Assembly: GCA_019454145.1 (NCBI GenBank)
Contig: CP075366.1
Location: forward strand, 661,564-725,563
Direction: 5' to 3'
Length of the DNA stretch: 64,000 bases
From: Fimbriimonadaceae bacterium
GTDB lineage: Bacteria > Armatimonadota > Fimbriimonadia > Fimbriimonadales > Fimbriimonadaceae
The notes beneath the pieces were generated by a model. That model was not told the origin of the DNA, did no database searches, and saw nothing but the letters and a program-made list of their open reading frames with translations. Position numbers and translations under genes: made by a program. Each line of letters begins with the position of its first letter. Position 1 is the stretch's first letter. Shown one piece after another: positions 6,925 to 23,311 of this stretch.

Positions 6925-7470
6925 ATGTCGAGCAATCCTCGTGAAGATTCACTAGCTGAAAAAAGGTGGTTGAACGCCCTTGCAAAGGGTGATGCTTCTG
7001 CGATGGGCGAGTTGTATAAGTTGTACGGAGAAAAGATTTTCCGCTACACATTCAGGATGTTGGGCAATCGTGCGGATGCGGAAGACGCAACTGCGGAAAC
7101 ATTTTTGAGGGTTTTGAGGCGCGCAAACGATTTGCGAGCGGACGGAGCCTTCAAAACATGGTTGTTCAGGATCGCACGCAACTTGTGCATTGATAAGATG
7201 CGCCAGCCGAAACTGCTAGAGATTTCGGGAGAACGGTCGTACAGTGGAACTGAAGAGCGCGCGGCTCTGCGGGTAACCGTCCAAGCAGCTTTGGACGAAC
7301 TGCCCCTCGATTACCGCGAGCCCCTCATTCTCTGCGATCTAGAGGATATATCAGCCAAGGAAGCGGCAGATACGCTGGGAATTAGCGTCCCGGCTCTGAA
7401 ATCGCGATTGTATCGCGGGAGAAGAGCCTTGCGCGAAAAACTCGGCGGCTCATTGGAGAAGCTGAAATGA
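6925..7470 (+). CDS. ECF RNA polymerase sigma factor (first of three)
   Basis: A sigma-70 family protein of 181 residues with only regions 2 and 4, as in ECF factors. Region 2 spans about residues 26-93 (NRADAEDATAETFLRVLRR, then FKTWLFRIARNLCID), and region 4 about 115-173 (LDELPLDYREPLIL, then AKEAADTLGISVPALKSRLYRGR). It would direct RNA polymerase to a stress or envelope regulon. Its stop overlaps the start of the next gene (ATGA 7467-7470), and that gene is the likely anti-sigma factor. A TATAAT box and an inverted repeat precede it. Confidence 0.9.
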   Translation: MSSNPREDSLAEKRWLNALAKGDASAMGELYKLYGEKIFRYTFRMLGNRADAEDATAETFLRVLRRANDLRADGAFKTWLFRIARNLCIDKMRQPKLLEISGERSYSGTEERAALRVTVQAALDELPLDYREPLILCDLEDISAKEAADTLGISVPALKSRLYRGRRALREKLGGSLEKLK

Positions 7471-12953: not shown

Positions 12954-13517
12954 ATGTCAGAGGAATGGGTAGTAAACGTTAAAGCCGATCAGAAAGCGGA
13001 TGAACTGAATTGGGTTGGCAGATTACGCCATGGCGATGAAGTCGCTATGAACTGCCTCGTCGCAAAACACCGCGACCGACTTATCAGAGTTGCCGCAAAT
13101 TTATTGCGCGACCGACATGAAGCTGAAGACGTAGCTCAAGAAGCCTTCCTTAAATCTTTCCGTGAAATTAAAAAGCTTCGCGACGACCGAGCCTATTCTG
13201 GATACATTTATCGAATTTGCGTTCGACTTTGTATGGATCGCCTTCGATCCAGAAAACCAACGTCAGAAATTGTTGAGCAAGGCGACGGCACTACAGGTCG
13301 CGAAGTTGAAACTAAGATCCTGGTTGAAGAACTCCTACAATATCTCACAGAGGAGCAGCGAGAAACTCTGGTACTGCGCGAGATGGATCAGTTGAGTTAC
13401 GACGAAGTTGCCGAACAATTGAATATCCCAGTCGGAACAGTCCGTTCTCGCCTGCATGCCGCTCGAGAGCGATTCCGAGCCGTTTGGATTGCCGCCAACG
13501 AAGGAGAACTCCGATGA
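12954..13517 (+). CDS. ECF RNA polymerase sigma factor (second of three)
   Basis: A 187-residue ECF sigma factor. Region 2 (about 28-95) contains DRHEAEDVAQEAFLKSFREI and YSGYIYRICVRLCMDRLRSR, and region 4 (about 125-180) contains YLTEEQRETLVLREMDQLSY and EVAEQLNIPVGTVRSRLHAAR. An AAGGAG sequence precedes the ATG. It overlaps the next gene by ATGA (13514-13517), forming a sigma/anti-sigma/membrane-protein operon that continues into glnD through two further ATGA junctions. Target regulon unknown. Confidence 0.92.
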   Translation: MSEEWVVNVKADQKADELNWVGRLRHGDEVAMNCLVAKHRDRLIRVAANLLRDRHEAEDVAQEAFLKSFREIKKLRDDRAYSGYIYRICVRLCMDRLRSRKPTSEIVEQGDGTTGREVETKILVEELLQYLTEEQRETLVLREMDQLSYDEVAEQLNIPVGTVRSRLHAARERFRAVWIAANEGELR

Positions 13518-19039: not shown

Positions 19040-20761
19040 GCTCTTGCAACCGACTACCCCACAATTTGGAACCTGCGCCCGACCGATGAACTTGCGGCGC
19101 AGAAGCTAGTTGCAGAACTCAATCTCCACCCGTTCGTTGCCCGATTGCTTGTTCAACGTGGCTATTCCGATCCGAGCAACGCCAATACGTTTCTGAATCC
19201 ATCGCTAGCGCACTTCAGCCGCCCGGAAGAGTTACCTGACTTTGAAAAGGCAAAGGCCGCGATTCTAGGAGCAAAAGAACGGGGTGAAAAAATCTACATC
19301 CACGGAGACTACGATGTGGATGGCGTTACCAGCGCGGCGATTCTTTACCGATTCCTAGCTAAGACTGGTTTTGAAGTGGAAGGTCACGTTCCGCACCGGG
19401 AAAACGAAGGTTACGGAATCCATATTGATACGATTCGGCGTGCCCATGCATCGGGGGCAAAGCTCATTCTCACCTGTGACTGCGGCACCAGCAGTCATAA
19501 GCAACTTGAAGCGGCATACGAGCTAGGCATGAAAGTGGTTGTAACGGATCACCACGAGTCTCCGGAGACCCTTCCTATGGCGGAAGCAGTGGTCAACCCT
19601 AAGAGGAGGGATTACGATGGTCCGGCAAGCGAAATGAGTGGCGCAGGGATCGCTTTTCTCTTCTGTGCTGGATTGGCGTCTGAACTTGGCATTAAGCCGG
19701 AAGTCTTTTATCGGCATTTTCTTGACCTTGCTGTTATGGGAACCGTTGCCGACGTCATGCCATTGCGGGACAACAACCGCATCATTGCTCGGCATGGCTT
19801 GACTGCCCTTAAAGCAAGCCAAAAACACGGAGTACAAGCTCTACTCACAGTCAGCAACTTAGCCGACCCCACAGCCAAGCTCACAACTCGCCATATTGGA
19901 TTCCAACTTGGCCCGCGAATCAACGCCGTTGGACGGATTGATGATGCCGATGTAGCTTTCCGACTTTTGACGACCGATGACGCAAGAGAATCTTACGAAC
20001 TCGCCAATTTTTTGAATCAAAAAAATACTGAGCGGCGCGAACTGCAAGATGCACTCATGGAAGAGACATTCGAAAAGATTCTCAGGGATGGACTCGACCA
20101 AAAATCGGCAATTGTCGTCGCCGGAGAAAACTGGCAGAAAGGCCTCGTTGGAATCGTGGCGGGCAAAGTGGTCGAGAAATTCCGGCGTCCTGCTTTCGTG
20201 CTTGGGATTCACGGCGATGTCGCTTCTGGTTCTGCCCGATCACTCCCCGCCTTTAATCTGTTTGAAGCAATCGAAGCAAACCGTTCTCTGCTCATCAAAG
20301 GAGGCGGTCATGCGGCGGCTGCGGGTGTTTCCTTAGATGTCGTGAATCTTGAAAAGTTTGCCCAGGCAATAGACACCTTTGCTTCCGAACGACTAAAACC
20401 CGAAGACTTTCTACCAACTCTCAACATTGACCAAGAACTTGACCTCGCCGATTCATCACTAGAACTTGCTCAGCATCTAGCCACCCTGGAACCATTCGGC
20501 GAAGCAAATCCAGAGCCGATTTTTGTTTCAACGGGTGTTCGGCTTGCCGCTTGCACGCCTACTCGAAATCCAATCCATGCTCGTTTAACATTAGAAACGG
20601 ATGCTGGTCAACGGCAAGCTATGGCTTTTGGTATTGGAGAGCAAGTTGCGGAATTGCCTCTCCAATCAGAAATAGATTTGGTCTATACAATAGAAGAAGA
20701 CCGGTTCAATAACCGGCCTCAACTTAAACTGATAGTGAAAGATTTGCGACTGAGTTCTTAA
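19037..20761 (+). CDS. recJ: single-stranded-DNA-specific 5'-3' exonuclease RecJ
   Basis: A 574-residue RecJ, typical in size. It has the DHH-family motifs IHGDYDVDGVTSAAIL (about 92-107), CDCGTS, the DHH motif in VVTDHHESPE, and the DHHA1 segment IKGGGHAAAAGVSL. The C-terminal 110 residues form the OB-type RecJ domain (LATLEPFGEANPEP). It degrades single-stranded DNA during recombination and mismatch repair using Mn2+ or Mg2+. Its stop shares TTAA with the stop of the convergent PDZ-protein gene. Confidence 0.95.
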   Translation: MALATDYPTIWNLRPTDELAAQKLVAELNLHPFVARLLVQRGYSDPSNANTFLNPSLAHFSRPEELPDFEKAKAAILGAKERGEKIYIHGDYDVDGVTSAAILYRFLAKTGFEVEGHVPHRENEGYGIHIDTIRRAHASGAKLILTCDCGTSSHKQLEAAYELGMKVVVTDHHESPETLPMAEAVVNPKRRDYDGPASEMSGAGIAFLFCAGLASELGIKPEVFYRHFLDLAVMGTVADVMPLRDNNRIIARHGLTALKASQKHGVQALLTVSNLADPTAKLTTRHIGFQLGPRINAVGRIDDADVAFRLLTTDDARESYELANFLNQKNTERRELQDALMEETFEKILRDGLDQKSAIVVAGENWQKGLVGIVAGKVVEKFRRPAFVLGIHGDVASGSARSLPAFNLFEAIEANRSLLIKGGGHAAAAGVSLDVVNLEKFAQAIDTFASERLKPEDFLPTLNIDQELDLADSSLELAQHLATLEPFGEANPEPIFVSTGVRLAACTPTRNPIHARLTLETDAGQRQAMAFGIGEQVAELPLQSEIDLVYTIEEDRFNNRPQLKLIVKDLRLSS

Positions 20762-21765
20762 CTCAGGTTCTTTTGCACACCGACTTTCATCTTGGCTTCA
20801 AACTGCTCGCCATTGCGGTACAGCTTGAGAGTTAGCTCTGATCCAGGTTCTAGTTCAAACAGCATTGCGGCAAGATCAATCACGTTGCCCATCGGAACGC
20901 CATTCGCCGACATGATTTGATCACCTGCTTTTACACCAGCTAGATCACACGGACTTCCTTTTGTAATCTCGTCCACGATGATCTGACCAGGGCCTTCGCC
21001 TTCGCGGAAAAAGATTCCAACACTTGGGTGTTCGACTTTATGGCTTTCTGTTCTAAAACCTTTTACAATTCGGTTAAGAATCTTGGGGCCAAGCGCGTAT
21101 GCAACGGTTAATCCAGCCGGGCCAAACTGCTTCGGGTCATTCCGTACGCTTTGGGTAGCCATTGCGGTTTCTGGATACATCGGGTTCAAGATCGCACCAA
21201 GGATGCCAACCAAGCTTCCTGAGTTATCAAAAACAACGCCTCCTCCGACGGGGAAATCTTTTGATTCAAGCTGGATTTCAGCGAGTGGAACAAATCGCAA
21301 GCTGGGCAAGAAGATTCCAGGGCGCGAATCGCTTGTGAGTTGACCACGAACCGGGCCATTGACAGTCGCAACCATTAGCTCGCCTTTTTTAACTTCTGGA
21401 GCGACACGAACTGCCTGGCGCTTACCCGTTACCCAATTCTGGGCACCTAGCAAAACAAGTTGGGTTTCTTTATCAAATCCAATCCGACCGAGGCGAACGT
21501 CAAGGCCGCCGCTCATTTTTGCCGTGATTGGTTCTTCAACAAGGCTTGAGACATGGGCGACAAAGTGGCCTTTGTCATCAATCATGACTGCAAGGCCGAA
21601 AGGTTTTCCGTGAGAATCAGGCAGCACCGCAACTGCATCGACGATGGAGTTCCAAGCCGCAGACTGATACGAGTTGACGGCGCGAATGGGGGTATCGATG
21701 AACCGCTCTTGCGGCTCATCGAACTGTGCTATGGCAACTGCAAGGCTAGCCGCCAAAAACGACAT
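20758..21765 (-). CDS. degenerate HtrA-like protein with PDZ domain
   Basis: From the ATG at 21765 the product has a short hydrophobic export segment (MSFLAASLAVAIAQ), a trypsin-like region, and a C-terminal PDZ domain (about 240-330, SPCDLAGVKAGDQIMSANG). In the position of the catalytic GNSGG of HtrA it has FPVGGGVVF, so the serine is replaced by valine. The aspartate of the LAVL strand is replaced too (ETQLVLLG); only a histidine (VAHVSSL) remains. It is probably a non-proteolytic peptide sensor. It is the third gene of an ECF sigma operon. An ATG at 21804 would give a longer, more basic signal peptide but a larger overlap with the upstream gene. Confidence 0.75.
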   Translation of the reverse strand: MSFLAASLAVAIAQFDEPQERFIDTPIRAVNSYQSAAWNSIVDAVAVLPDSHGKPFGLAVMIDDKGHFVAHVSSLVEEPITAKMSGGLDVRLGRIGFDKETQLVLLGAQNWVTGKRQAVRVAPEVKKGELMVATVNGPVRGQLTSDSRPGIFLPSLRFVPLAEIQLESKDFPVGGGVVFDNSGSLVGILGAILNPMYPETAMATQSVRNDPKQFGPAGLTVAYALGPKILNRIVKGFRTESHKVEHPSVGIFFREGEGPGQIIVDEITKGSPCDLAGVKAGDQIMSANGVPMGNVIDLAAMLFELEPGSELTLKLYRNGEQFEAKMKVGVQKNLS

Positions 21766-22603
21766 CGCGCTTGTCAACCTCCATCGCTGAATTTGCCCGG
21801 GCATCAAACTGTGAACCACCACCGACCAATACGACTTTATTGCTATCCGTGTTAGTAGATTCCCGTTCAGCACCACCAAATGATTCTATGGCTCGGTTAG
21901 CAGAATCGCTCACGTTGTCGCTACTCGGAGCCGCTTTCATCGTTGCGTTGCCTGCACTACCGAATCCCATCGTAATCGCCCCTACTGCACTCGATGCGAG
22001 GTCTTGCAGACTGACTGCCGGAGTACTCGTATTACTGGCTAACCGACCGCTATTTCCACGAGGCCGCCGATTACTCTTGACTGGTTGCTTAGTTTGTGGT
22101 TCTGGCTCATCCTGTACCACAGGAGGCGTGACTTCCTGATTTGAAGCGACAGGCTCTTGCGTATCTTTGGAAATCTCAGCCGCACTTGGAGCCGTCTCCA
22201 AACTCGGTTGAGCCACGTGATCAGAATTCTTGGCGATACTGCCGCTTGATGGTTGACCAGTTTGGGTCATCGTCTTCGGCCCAAACATCATCCAACTTGC
22301 GATGGCCGCACATGCGGCAACTGGCACGGCGAACTTCCAGAACGAAGTCCAAGGCGCGGTTCGCTTACTGCCGGAACCTTGATTCAAGATCGCATTGCGC
22401 AGATGCTCGGTTGAAAGCTGGCATTCAGGTACTTCCTTTAGCCCTCGAAGTTCCGATCGTAAATTGTTCAGAACAATTCGCTCCTGCTCTAACACCGATG
22501 CCGAAACCCCTTCCAGCATCGCAAGATCGCCAGCTTCCGATTCACCAAAGATTTGGCGCATCAGGCTGTCCATCTGTTCATCATTCAAATGATCTTGGTT
22601 CAT
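21746..22603 (-). CDS. membrane anti-sigma factor-like protein
   Basis: This is a 285-residue protein. The N-terminal helical domain of about 80 residues begins HLNDEQMDSLM. One transmembrane helix lies at about 89-106 (FWKFAVPVAACAAIASWMMF), followed by a long extracytoplasmic tail rich in serine, threonine, proline and asparagine. It starts 3 nt after the stop of an ECF sigma gene and overlaps the following HtrA-like gene. Layout and context indicate an anti-sigma factor; no zinc motif is present. The low-complexity tail could be the part that senses envelope stress or binds the PDZ protein. Confidence 0.75.
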   Translation of the reverse strand: MNQDHLNDEQMDSLMRQIFGESEAGDLAMLEGVSASVLEQERIVLNNLRSELRGLKEVPECQLSTEHLRNAILNQGSGSKRTAPWTSFWKFAVPVAACAAIASWMMFGPKTMTQTGQPSSGSIAKNSDHVAQPSLETAPSAAEISKDTQEPVASNQEVTPPVVQDEPEPQTKQPVKSNRRPRGNSGRLASNTSTPAVSLQDLASSAVGAITMGFGSAGNATMKAAPSSDNVSDSANRAIESFGGAERESTNTDSNKVVLVGGGSQFDARANSAMEVDKRDVVFGG

Positions 22604-22606
22604 TTC

Positions 22607-23251
22607 TTATTCGCCCTCCATGAGAGGTGCAAGTCGGTCGCGCAACGCCCTACGAGCCCTTAATACTCGGAGTTTTGCGCCACCTACCGAACATTTGAAA
22701 TATTCGGCAATATCGTCGTAATCCATCTCCTCAATGTCGCGAAAAACTATGGCATTGCGGTGATGTTCTGGCAAAGCGGCAATCGCTTTGCGGAGTAATT
22801 CTCTTCTGCGCTCTTGTTCAAGGTTCTCTACTGGATCTTCGGTTGATGTACCAACCGTCATCCAACTCAAAGCGCCCATTGCTTCTTTCTGCTCAAGGTT
22901 TGTCCGGCGCGTGGACATTCTGGCTTTGTCAGTTCCAAGGTTAGCCGTGATTCTGAGGAGCCAAGTTGTGAACTTCGCCTCGTCTCGGTACCGGCCCAGG
23001 TTCTGGTAAGCCTTTACAAATACTTCTTGAACAATATCTTCGGCGTCGTCTCGACGAGGCGCCATTTGGTAAGCAAAACGGTAAACGAGGTTGCGATGCC
23101 GTTCAAAGAGCCGTTCAAATGCGGAGAAATCACCCTGGCGCGCTTGATGCACCAAAGCTTCATCCGAATCTGCCACTAAACCCGCTGGTATGGCGTTCGA
23201 TTTTTCGCTCAACGGCGATTGATCGAATTTCAAGGCTATCCTCGTGACCAT
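22607..23251 (-). CDS. ECF RNA polymerase sigma factor (third of three)
   Basis: An ECF sigma factor of about 214 residues. Region 2 has PRRDDAEDIVQEVFVKAYQNL and FTTWLLRITANLGTD, and region 4 has LPEHHRNAIVFRDIEEMDYD and IAEYFKCSVGGAKLRVLRARR. I start it at the ATG at 23251 (preceded by GTAAG) rather than the TTG three codons upstream. The usual TVKSRL-type recognition helix reads GGAKLRVL, a noticeable departure. It heads a three-gene unit with a membrane anti-sigma factor and an HtrA-like PDZ protein, the classical envelope-stress arrangement. Confidence 0.9.
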   Translation of the reverse strand: MVTRIALKFDQSPLSEKSNAIPAGLVADSDEALVHQARQGDFSAFERLFERHRNLVYRFAYQMAPRRDDAEDIVQEVFVKAYQNLGRYRDEAKFTTWLLRITANLGTDKARMSTRRTNLEQKEAMGALSWMTVGTSTEDPVENLEQERRRELLRKAIAALPEHHRNAIVFRDIEEMDYDDIAEYFKCSVGGAKLRVLRARRALRDRLAPLMEGE

Positions 23252-23311
23252 CTTACACAACTGACGGTTGATGACGGTCTGCGTTACGGTTACAGGGAGT
23301 CTAAATCGGGA

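Follow-up and report, generated by a model that had tools for sequence, protein, structure and literature searches.

A sigma factor operon of Fimbriimonadaceae with a predicted catalytically dead HtrA-like protein and a conserved anti-sigma C-terminus

We analysed a 64,000-nucleotide stretch of DNA (the window) from a Fimbriimonadaceae bacterium of the phylum Armatimonadota (GenBank GCA_019454145.1, contig CP075366.1, positions 661,564 to 725,563), whose 2.76-Mb genome is a single contig. Three consecutive genes, all on the minus strand of the window, encode an extracytoplasmic function (ECF) sigma factor, a candidate membrane anti-sigma factor and an HtrA-like protein with a PDZ domain. This arrangement had been proposed in an earlier note made from the letters of the window, and it was borne out by Pfam, profile searches and the layout of the open reading frames (ORFs). 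Judged by its sequence, the HtrA-like protein is catalytically dead. We tentatively read the trio as an autoregulated sigma/anti-sigma switch in which an HtrA-derived pseudoprotease would shield the anti-sigma factor, much as RseB does, and we give this reading slightly less than an even chance. The arrangement recurs in several Armatimonadota families, which suggests that the dead protease is a binding sensor and not a cutter. Kinship with known systems points to a role in envelope stress, as the earlier note also had it.

The HtrA-like gene (20758..21765; features are on the minus strand unless noted) likely starts at ATG 21765, with ATG 21804 as the alternative, and its product has, by eye, a signal-like N-terminus. 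Pfam recovered only the PDZ domain in this protein (20782..21030, 4.9e-12) and no protease domain, and a genome search with Trypsin_2 gave four matches that did not include it. Profile comparisons revealed a chymotrypsin-like domain of the HtrA type (21055..21627) ahead of the PDZ domain. For a profile of 33 relatives (A1), the DegP protease domain was a match of its own, distinct from the PDZ (i-Evalue 9.2e-08), and hhalign against six HtrAs from Armatimonadota with His and Ser in place (Asp is kept in five and is Glu in L158) aligned residues 49-347 over 275 columns with E 9.5e-26. The PDZ domain retains the pattern PSVGIFF, which we take to be its carboxylate loop, and the loop glycine (G263) is invariant among relatives. 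No match to the MucB/RseB fold was found in Pfam at E<=10, a search in which an RseB-like-looking ORF elsewhere in the genome (at L097, below) also went without a match.

AlphaFold2 run on the single sequence was useless (predicted local distance difference test, pLDDT, 35). Supplied with 22 HtrA rows from viral contigs, it gave a model with pLDDT 69 and a predicted template modelling score of 0.70. The best matches of this model were HtrAs both in Foldseek (E 9.7e-17) and in VIA (Z up to 23.2, root-mean-square deviation 3.1 and 261 aligned residues, for Rv0983). Since the alignment itself consisted of HtrAs, the model is not independent evidence. Its residues 124-160, before the Ser position (161), fall below pLDDT 50, so claims about single residues are left to the sequence alignments.

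The His-Asp-Ser triad is absent from the window protein. Profile and multiple alignments place S86 (21547..21549) at the catalytic His and Q115 (21460..21462) at the catalytic Asp, and V187 (21244..21246) stands at the catalytic Ser in the DegP-profile and hhalign alignments among others, with G188 there in one other alignment. The earlier note had read a valine for the serine and a lost aspartate, and had suggested alignment with DegP as the check; the alignments upheld both the homology and the losses and added that of the histidine, which the note had not mentioned. The note had also allowed for another serine in the active site, and none was placed there by any alignment of the window protein. 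Single-sequence phmmer drew a two-residue gap that would keep a His (AHRS, with an H two residues earlier in 22 of the 33 A1 rows). We rejected this candidate, as the profile and multiple alignments place S86 without a gap; Asp and Ser are lost whichever alignment is used.

Relatives share these losses. In two MAFFT alignments, on which all triad counts are based, His was found in none of 71 proteins, 52 from the window's order and 19 from outside its class; a sigma gene is in view for 69 of them, and the other two are cut by contigs. The in-order members comprise 32 from the window's family (f1), one from f2, eight from f42 and 11 from f43, including four near-copies of other rows (L036, L038, L053 and L063). 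Asp is present in 2/32 f1 proteins, 7/8 from f42 and 0/12 of the other in-order members, and Ser in 0/32 from f1, 0/8 from f42, the single f2 protein and 2/11 from f43. In the two families outside the class with related sigma-linked HtrA-like proteins (f5, 10 loci; f9, nine loci), all 19 proteins have Asp or Glu for His and Asn for Asp, and all 19 keep Ser. Because f5, f9, f43, f2 and seven of the eight f42 proteins all carry an acidic residue in place of His, the alignments suggest that the loss of His probably came first and that of Ser last. In 20 of 41 rows from f1, f42 and f2 some Ser is found in the ten columns around the active site, but L067 (f2) is the sole row in which it occupies the catalytic position. 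Just before the former Ser loop and outside the triad, the f1 proteins share a strongly conserved R-x2-P-x2-E-x3-E pattern (R170, P173, E176, E180), a possible new functional site.

The HtrA-like gene was matched at E<=1e-30 in 76 of 85 Fimbriimonadaceae genomes, exactly once in each, and in 67 of the 70 genomes of good quality. With one copy in 76 of the 85 genomes, an open frame in the window and losses common to relatives, a broken or mis-sequenced gene is ruled out. A single in-frame stop occurs in six of the 76 matching rows (G111, G196, G247, G239, G105 and G244); at the loci of G111, G196 and G105 (L045, L055 and L051) an open frame of 331-341 amino acids was found. In the nearest named relative, a metagenome-assembled genome of Fimbriimonadaceae, the HtrA-like protein is 99% identical, and this was the sole locus returned by a contig scan. 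No match at this threshold was found in G177, G181 and G214 or in the less complete G201, G202, G218, G220, G224 and G234. The first two, of genus g15, are 1.5-Mb genomes, 97% complete; at E<=1e-12 G181 gave a weak match (8.2e-14) and G177 none, and these reduced genomes may have lost the switch.

Linkage to the sigma gene is conserved as well. The three genes are adjacent in all 33 f1 and f2 loci (the window and 32 others), and the trio is complete in seven of eight f42 loci, L102 being cut by its contig. In f43, where 11 of the 18 genomes were covered, the anti-sigma gene is found in 11/11 loci and the sigma gene in 10/11 (L111 is cut by its contig). One f43 bin, G273, holds two different dead HtrA genes of the sigma-linked type, L111 on C80 and L112 on C42, so that either the gene was duplicated or the bin is mixed. 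Family f44 is represented by one genome (G278, best match E 7.0e-35). When members from outside the class were used to search the phylum (291 genomes), 38 places were listed, of which 30 were fetched. A sigma gene lies on the same strand within the flank in 25 of the 30 places, and His is absent from all 25 proteins (six are f43 loci already counted). In the five places with no sigma gene in view, four proteins keep His and the fifth, L144, has Asp there.

When the triad columns were left out, a tree of 44 proteins placed 36 sigma-linked proteins on one side of a branch and seven HtrAs with His and Ser retained on the other (Shimodaira-Hasegawa-like approximate likelihood ratio test 99), with L144 among the dead members of f9. 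This tree came from a quick search, contains several long branches and has no inferred root; a single origin is therefore compatible with it and not proven.

The candidate anti-sigma gene (21746..22603, 285 amino acids) was recognised from its place in the operon, a hydrophobic segment and a low-complexity periplasmic arm. It adjoins the sigma gene across a gap of 3 nt and encodes a single transmembrane segment at residues 91-109 (22277..22333), a lone Kyte-Doolittle peak of 1.59, just below the 1.6 line. On the same scale, a segment above 1.6 is found in 40 of 49 scanned anti-sigmas and is missing from nine; L052 and L053 show no clear segment. Against Pfam the protein gave nothing above cut-off and no zf-HC2, so the zinc finger of Class I was not found in it. 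Among the operon relatives scanned, zf-HC2-like N-termini were above cut-off only in L124 of f9 (2.1e-08), below it in L100, L104, L105, L106, L108 and L067, and absent from L116, L122 and L049. The f1 anti-sigmas share a conserved juxtamembrane segment, PECQLSxERLRxAIL.

After the hydrophobic segment come 176 residues, 40% of which are Pro, Ala, Ser or Thr. The earlier note had pointed to this low-complexity arm as a possible target of the HtrA-like sensor. Counted from the C-terminus over 28 f1 sequences (four near-copies excluded), pairwise identity is about 0.1 through the linker and 0.80 and 0.86 at the last two positions. The suggestion therefore narrows: with an unconserved linker and conserved last residues, any binding of the pseudoprotease to the anti-sigma would more likely involve the C-terminus. 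Family comparison delimits a conserved tail of 30 residues ending in VVFGG (21749..21838). A -GG end is found in 27 of 32 f1 anti-sigmas (exceptions L041, L044, L048, L049 and L051) and in six of the seven readable from f42 (exception L103), and all 11 from f43 end in -SF. A second conserved block in the tail, situated before the ATG at which the next gene begins, consists of a hydrophobic strand, TG, A and EV.

The anti-sigma and HtrA-like genes overlap by 20 nt (21746-21765), with the ATG 17 nt before the stop. This ATG is at the equivalent place in 23 of 37 distinct f1 and f42 tails, and conserved residues occur in both frames. In the same 37 tails, the entropies at codon positions 1, 2 and 3 are 0.58, 0.30 and 0.88 for the last codon and 0.30, 0.00 and 0.70 for the second-last. 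The wobble position, which is position 2 of the other frame, is thus the most variable at both codons, and the anti-sigma frame must itself be constrained. At the third-last codon position 1 is the most variable, and the third- and fourth-last positions are not assignable to one frame. The idea that tail conservation is a mere shadow of the overlapping gene is accordingly rejected in part, for the last two codons.

The sigma factor gene most likely starts at ATG 23251 (22607..23251), within an ORF spanning 23260..22607. We prefer this ATG, which was lined up by eye with L037, because TTG 23260 is too near the -10 element. Its product contains Sigma70 regions 2 and 4 only, as in ECF factors (Pfam Sigma70_r2 1.1e-18 and r4_2 4.2e-12; NCBIfam TIGR02937 sigma70-ECF, 104.6 bits against a cut-off of 42.9). 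Upstream lies a promoter-like motif recognised by its conservation among loci, with a -35 element CGTAAC (23283..23288) and a -10 element CGTC (23263..23266) 16 bases downstream of GTAAC. In a scan of 240 nt around the longest-ORF sigma start of the 28 f1 loci plus f2 (four near-copies excluded), G[ATG]AAC-N15-18-CGTC turned up close to that start in 21 of the 29 loci, with a spacer of 16 in 21/21; mononucleotide shuffles gave 0.365 per set. Among the eight misses, three (L037, L043 and L056) have GTAAC-N16-CGTT by eye, and some have over-extended ORF starts. This conserved motif ahead of the sigma gene supports a loop in which the sigma factor controls the operon that encodes it.

Several neighbouring features complete the setting. 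By eye, a transporter-like gene lies upstream of the trio on the same strand, and a recJ gene on the plus strand converges with the HtrA-like gene, their ends overlapping by 4 bases (20758-20761). Two more sigma-like ORFs are found on the plus strand of the window (6925-7470 and 12954-13517), and Sigma70_r2 has 24 matches in the genome, 23 of them above cut-off.

The same genome also encodes HtrAs with intact triads. At L097 (2445-6053; C1:1609444-1613052) the genes of an ECF sigma factor, a zf-HC2 anti-sigma and an HtrA that retains TNDHVV, QIDLA and GNSGGP share one row with a fourth gene, whose product looks like RseB/MucB by eye and gave no Pfam match. The row thus resembles a canonical envelope-stress set. 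L098 is a second HtrA with an intact triad, a single PDZ domain and, by eye, an N-terminal hydrophobic stretch. Genes resembling the M50 site-2 protease are found elsewhere in the genome. Since intact HtrAs are kept, the dead protein did not replace HtrA activity in the cell.

These observations can be joined into the following model. The third gene of the operon would produce a secreted HtrA-derived pseudoprotease that docks, most likely through the PDZ carboxylate loop, on the C-terminal end of the anti-sigma's periplasmic arm. While bound, it would play the part that RseB plays for RseA, keeping a separate site-1 protease, and after it the M50 protease, away from the anti-sigma; one candidate site-1 protease is the HtrA at C1:1.864 Mb, which has a single PDZ and, by eye, an N-terminal hydrophobic anchor. 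Misfolded envelope proteins would compete for the pseudoprotease, freeing the tail so that the anti-sigma could be cut and the released sigma factor could amplify its own operon. The PDZ loop is kept, catalysis is gone and the operon partner presents a free C-terminus on what should be the same side of the membrane, so on the simplest view this C-terminus is what the dead HtrA recognises. More broadly, the anti-sigma may carry its own lineage-varying C-terminal PDZ ligand (-GG, -SF and others), read in several Armatimonadota families by a dedicated dead HtrA that lost His first and Ser last; we regard this as a real but rather doubtful possibility.

Several points weigh against the shielding model or the parts from which it is built. 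PDZ ligands usually end in a hydrophobic residue; a -GG end is unusual for such a ligand, and only the -SF end of f43 fits the rule well. Other PDZ proteins, an intact HtrA or the M50 protease for instance, could be what the tail binds. The start codon of the next gene partly dictates the [ND]V that precedes the tail end. L144 is a dead member with no sigma gene in its 1.5-kb flank. Genome-wide, the strict promoter pattern is not enriched (six matches against 10 in a reversed control), and we dropped the search for a regulon on this account; of the five matches outside the operon, three have an open frame of at least 90 codons that starts within 200 nt downstream, none of which was identified. 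The binding of pseudoprotease to anti-sigma, the sign of the control and the stimulus are themselves inferences from sequence.

Identical anatomy would serve a pseudoprotease with the opposite sign, an activator or adaptor. Such a protein would capture misfolded proteins along with the anti-sigma tail and hand the anti-sigma over to an intact HtrA, or would activate that HtrA allosterically within a mixed trimer, in the way of MamO. The genome does contain intact HtrAs, and there is a precedent in which MamO promotes MamE-dependent proteolysis (PMC4794232). Those HtrAs are however encoded elsewhere in the genome, contact with them is conjectural and the sign of regulation is not readable from sequence, so we consider an adaptor unlikely, if still a serious candidate. 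Less probable again is a route with no proteolysis at all, with the pseudoprotease acting as a ligand sensor on the anti-sigma arm and altering the grip on the sigma factor across the membrane. The erosion of all three catalytic positions in the window's family, where fold and PDZ persist, and the conserved juxtamembrane segment of f1 would suit such a sensor; against it, the genome retains M50 proteases and HtrAs, and the RseA route is one of sequential proteolysis (reviewed in PMC8103513). An HtrA-like protein that is mainly an output of the operon, a periplasmic chaperone-like holdase whose neighbour's tail serves some other partner, has a similarly low probability: effector genes are frequent in sigma operons and an HtrA devoid of catalysis can act as a chaperone (DegP S210A), but the loss of His tracks sigma linkage across several families, suggesting a role specific to the switch and not general quality control.

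In the textbook picture of Sigma-E type stress switches, the anti-sigma factor is cut by a PDZ protease, and neighbourhoods of sigma, anti-sigma and HtrA genes are known. The switch described here, present in nearly all complete genomes of the family, keeps the HtrA scaffold and gives up cutting. It offers a natural test of the sensing roles that HtrA folds and PDZ domains can play once catalysis is lost, and of a shift in signal transfer from cutting to binding. The graded loss, with Ser kept in two outside families and gone in the window's, provides a series for studying that transition, and the conserved anti-sigma C-termini are short enough to be synthesized as peptides. If the proposal is true, a protease has turned into a peptide-reading receptor for its own operon partner. 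An HtrA-descended pseudoprotease is already known in MamO (PMC4794232). Searches of the open-access literature turned up no description of a sigma switch with a dead HtrA fixed to it. What is new is the conserved promoter ahead of the sigma gene and an anti-sigma whose linker is unconserved but whose C-terminus is conserved, as -GG or, in f43, as -SF.

Among the closest known counterparts is the RpoE-RseA-RseB system with DegS and RseP. In Escherichia coli, RseA is removed by sequential proteolysis in which DegS makes a cut (PMC8103513). On that description, the two systems share an ECF sigma factor, a single-pass anti-sigma, a secreted third partner in the same operon and kinship to a PDZ-HtrA. 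Both also have an autoregulated promoter, which in the window we take to be of the RpoE type from the kind of motif. They differ in that the third partner is a dead HtrA and not RseB, that the window protein lacks the cutting residues of DegS and that the window anti-sigma, unlike RseA, has a free C-terminus conserved by lineage. MamO of magnetotactic bacteria, an HtrA-family pseudoprotease for magnetosome formation that binds metal via a di-histidine motif (PMC4794232), is likened by description: it too is an HtrA descendant with a degenerate triad, a non-catalytic role (which we infer for the window protein) and a place beside the pathway of an active paralogue, whereas the partners in the window are sigma and anti-sigma genes. 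AlgW of Pseudomonas aeruginosa, in the AlgW/MucA/MucB system, is reported to be an active protease that reads mislocalised outer-membrane proteins or MucE (PMC8545111). There, as proposed for the window, an anti-sigma factor is controlled by an HtrA protein whose PDZ domain recognises C-termini; unlike AlgW, the window protein is predicted to be dead and the candidate C-terminus is the anti-sigma's own. Within its own genome, the trio resembles the L097 row, which likewise sets an ECF sigma factor, an anti-sigma and an HtrA side by side, but with an HtrA that keeps its triad.

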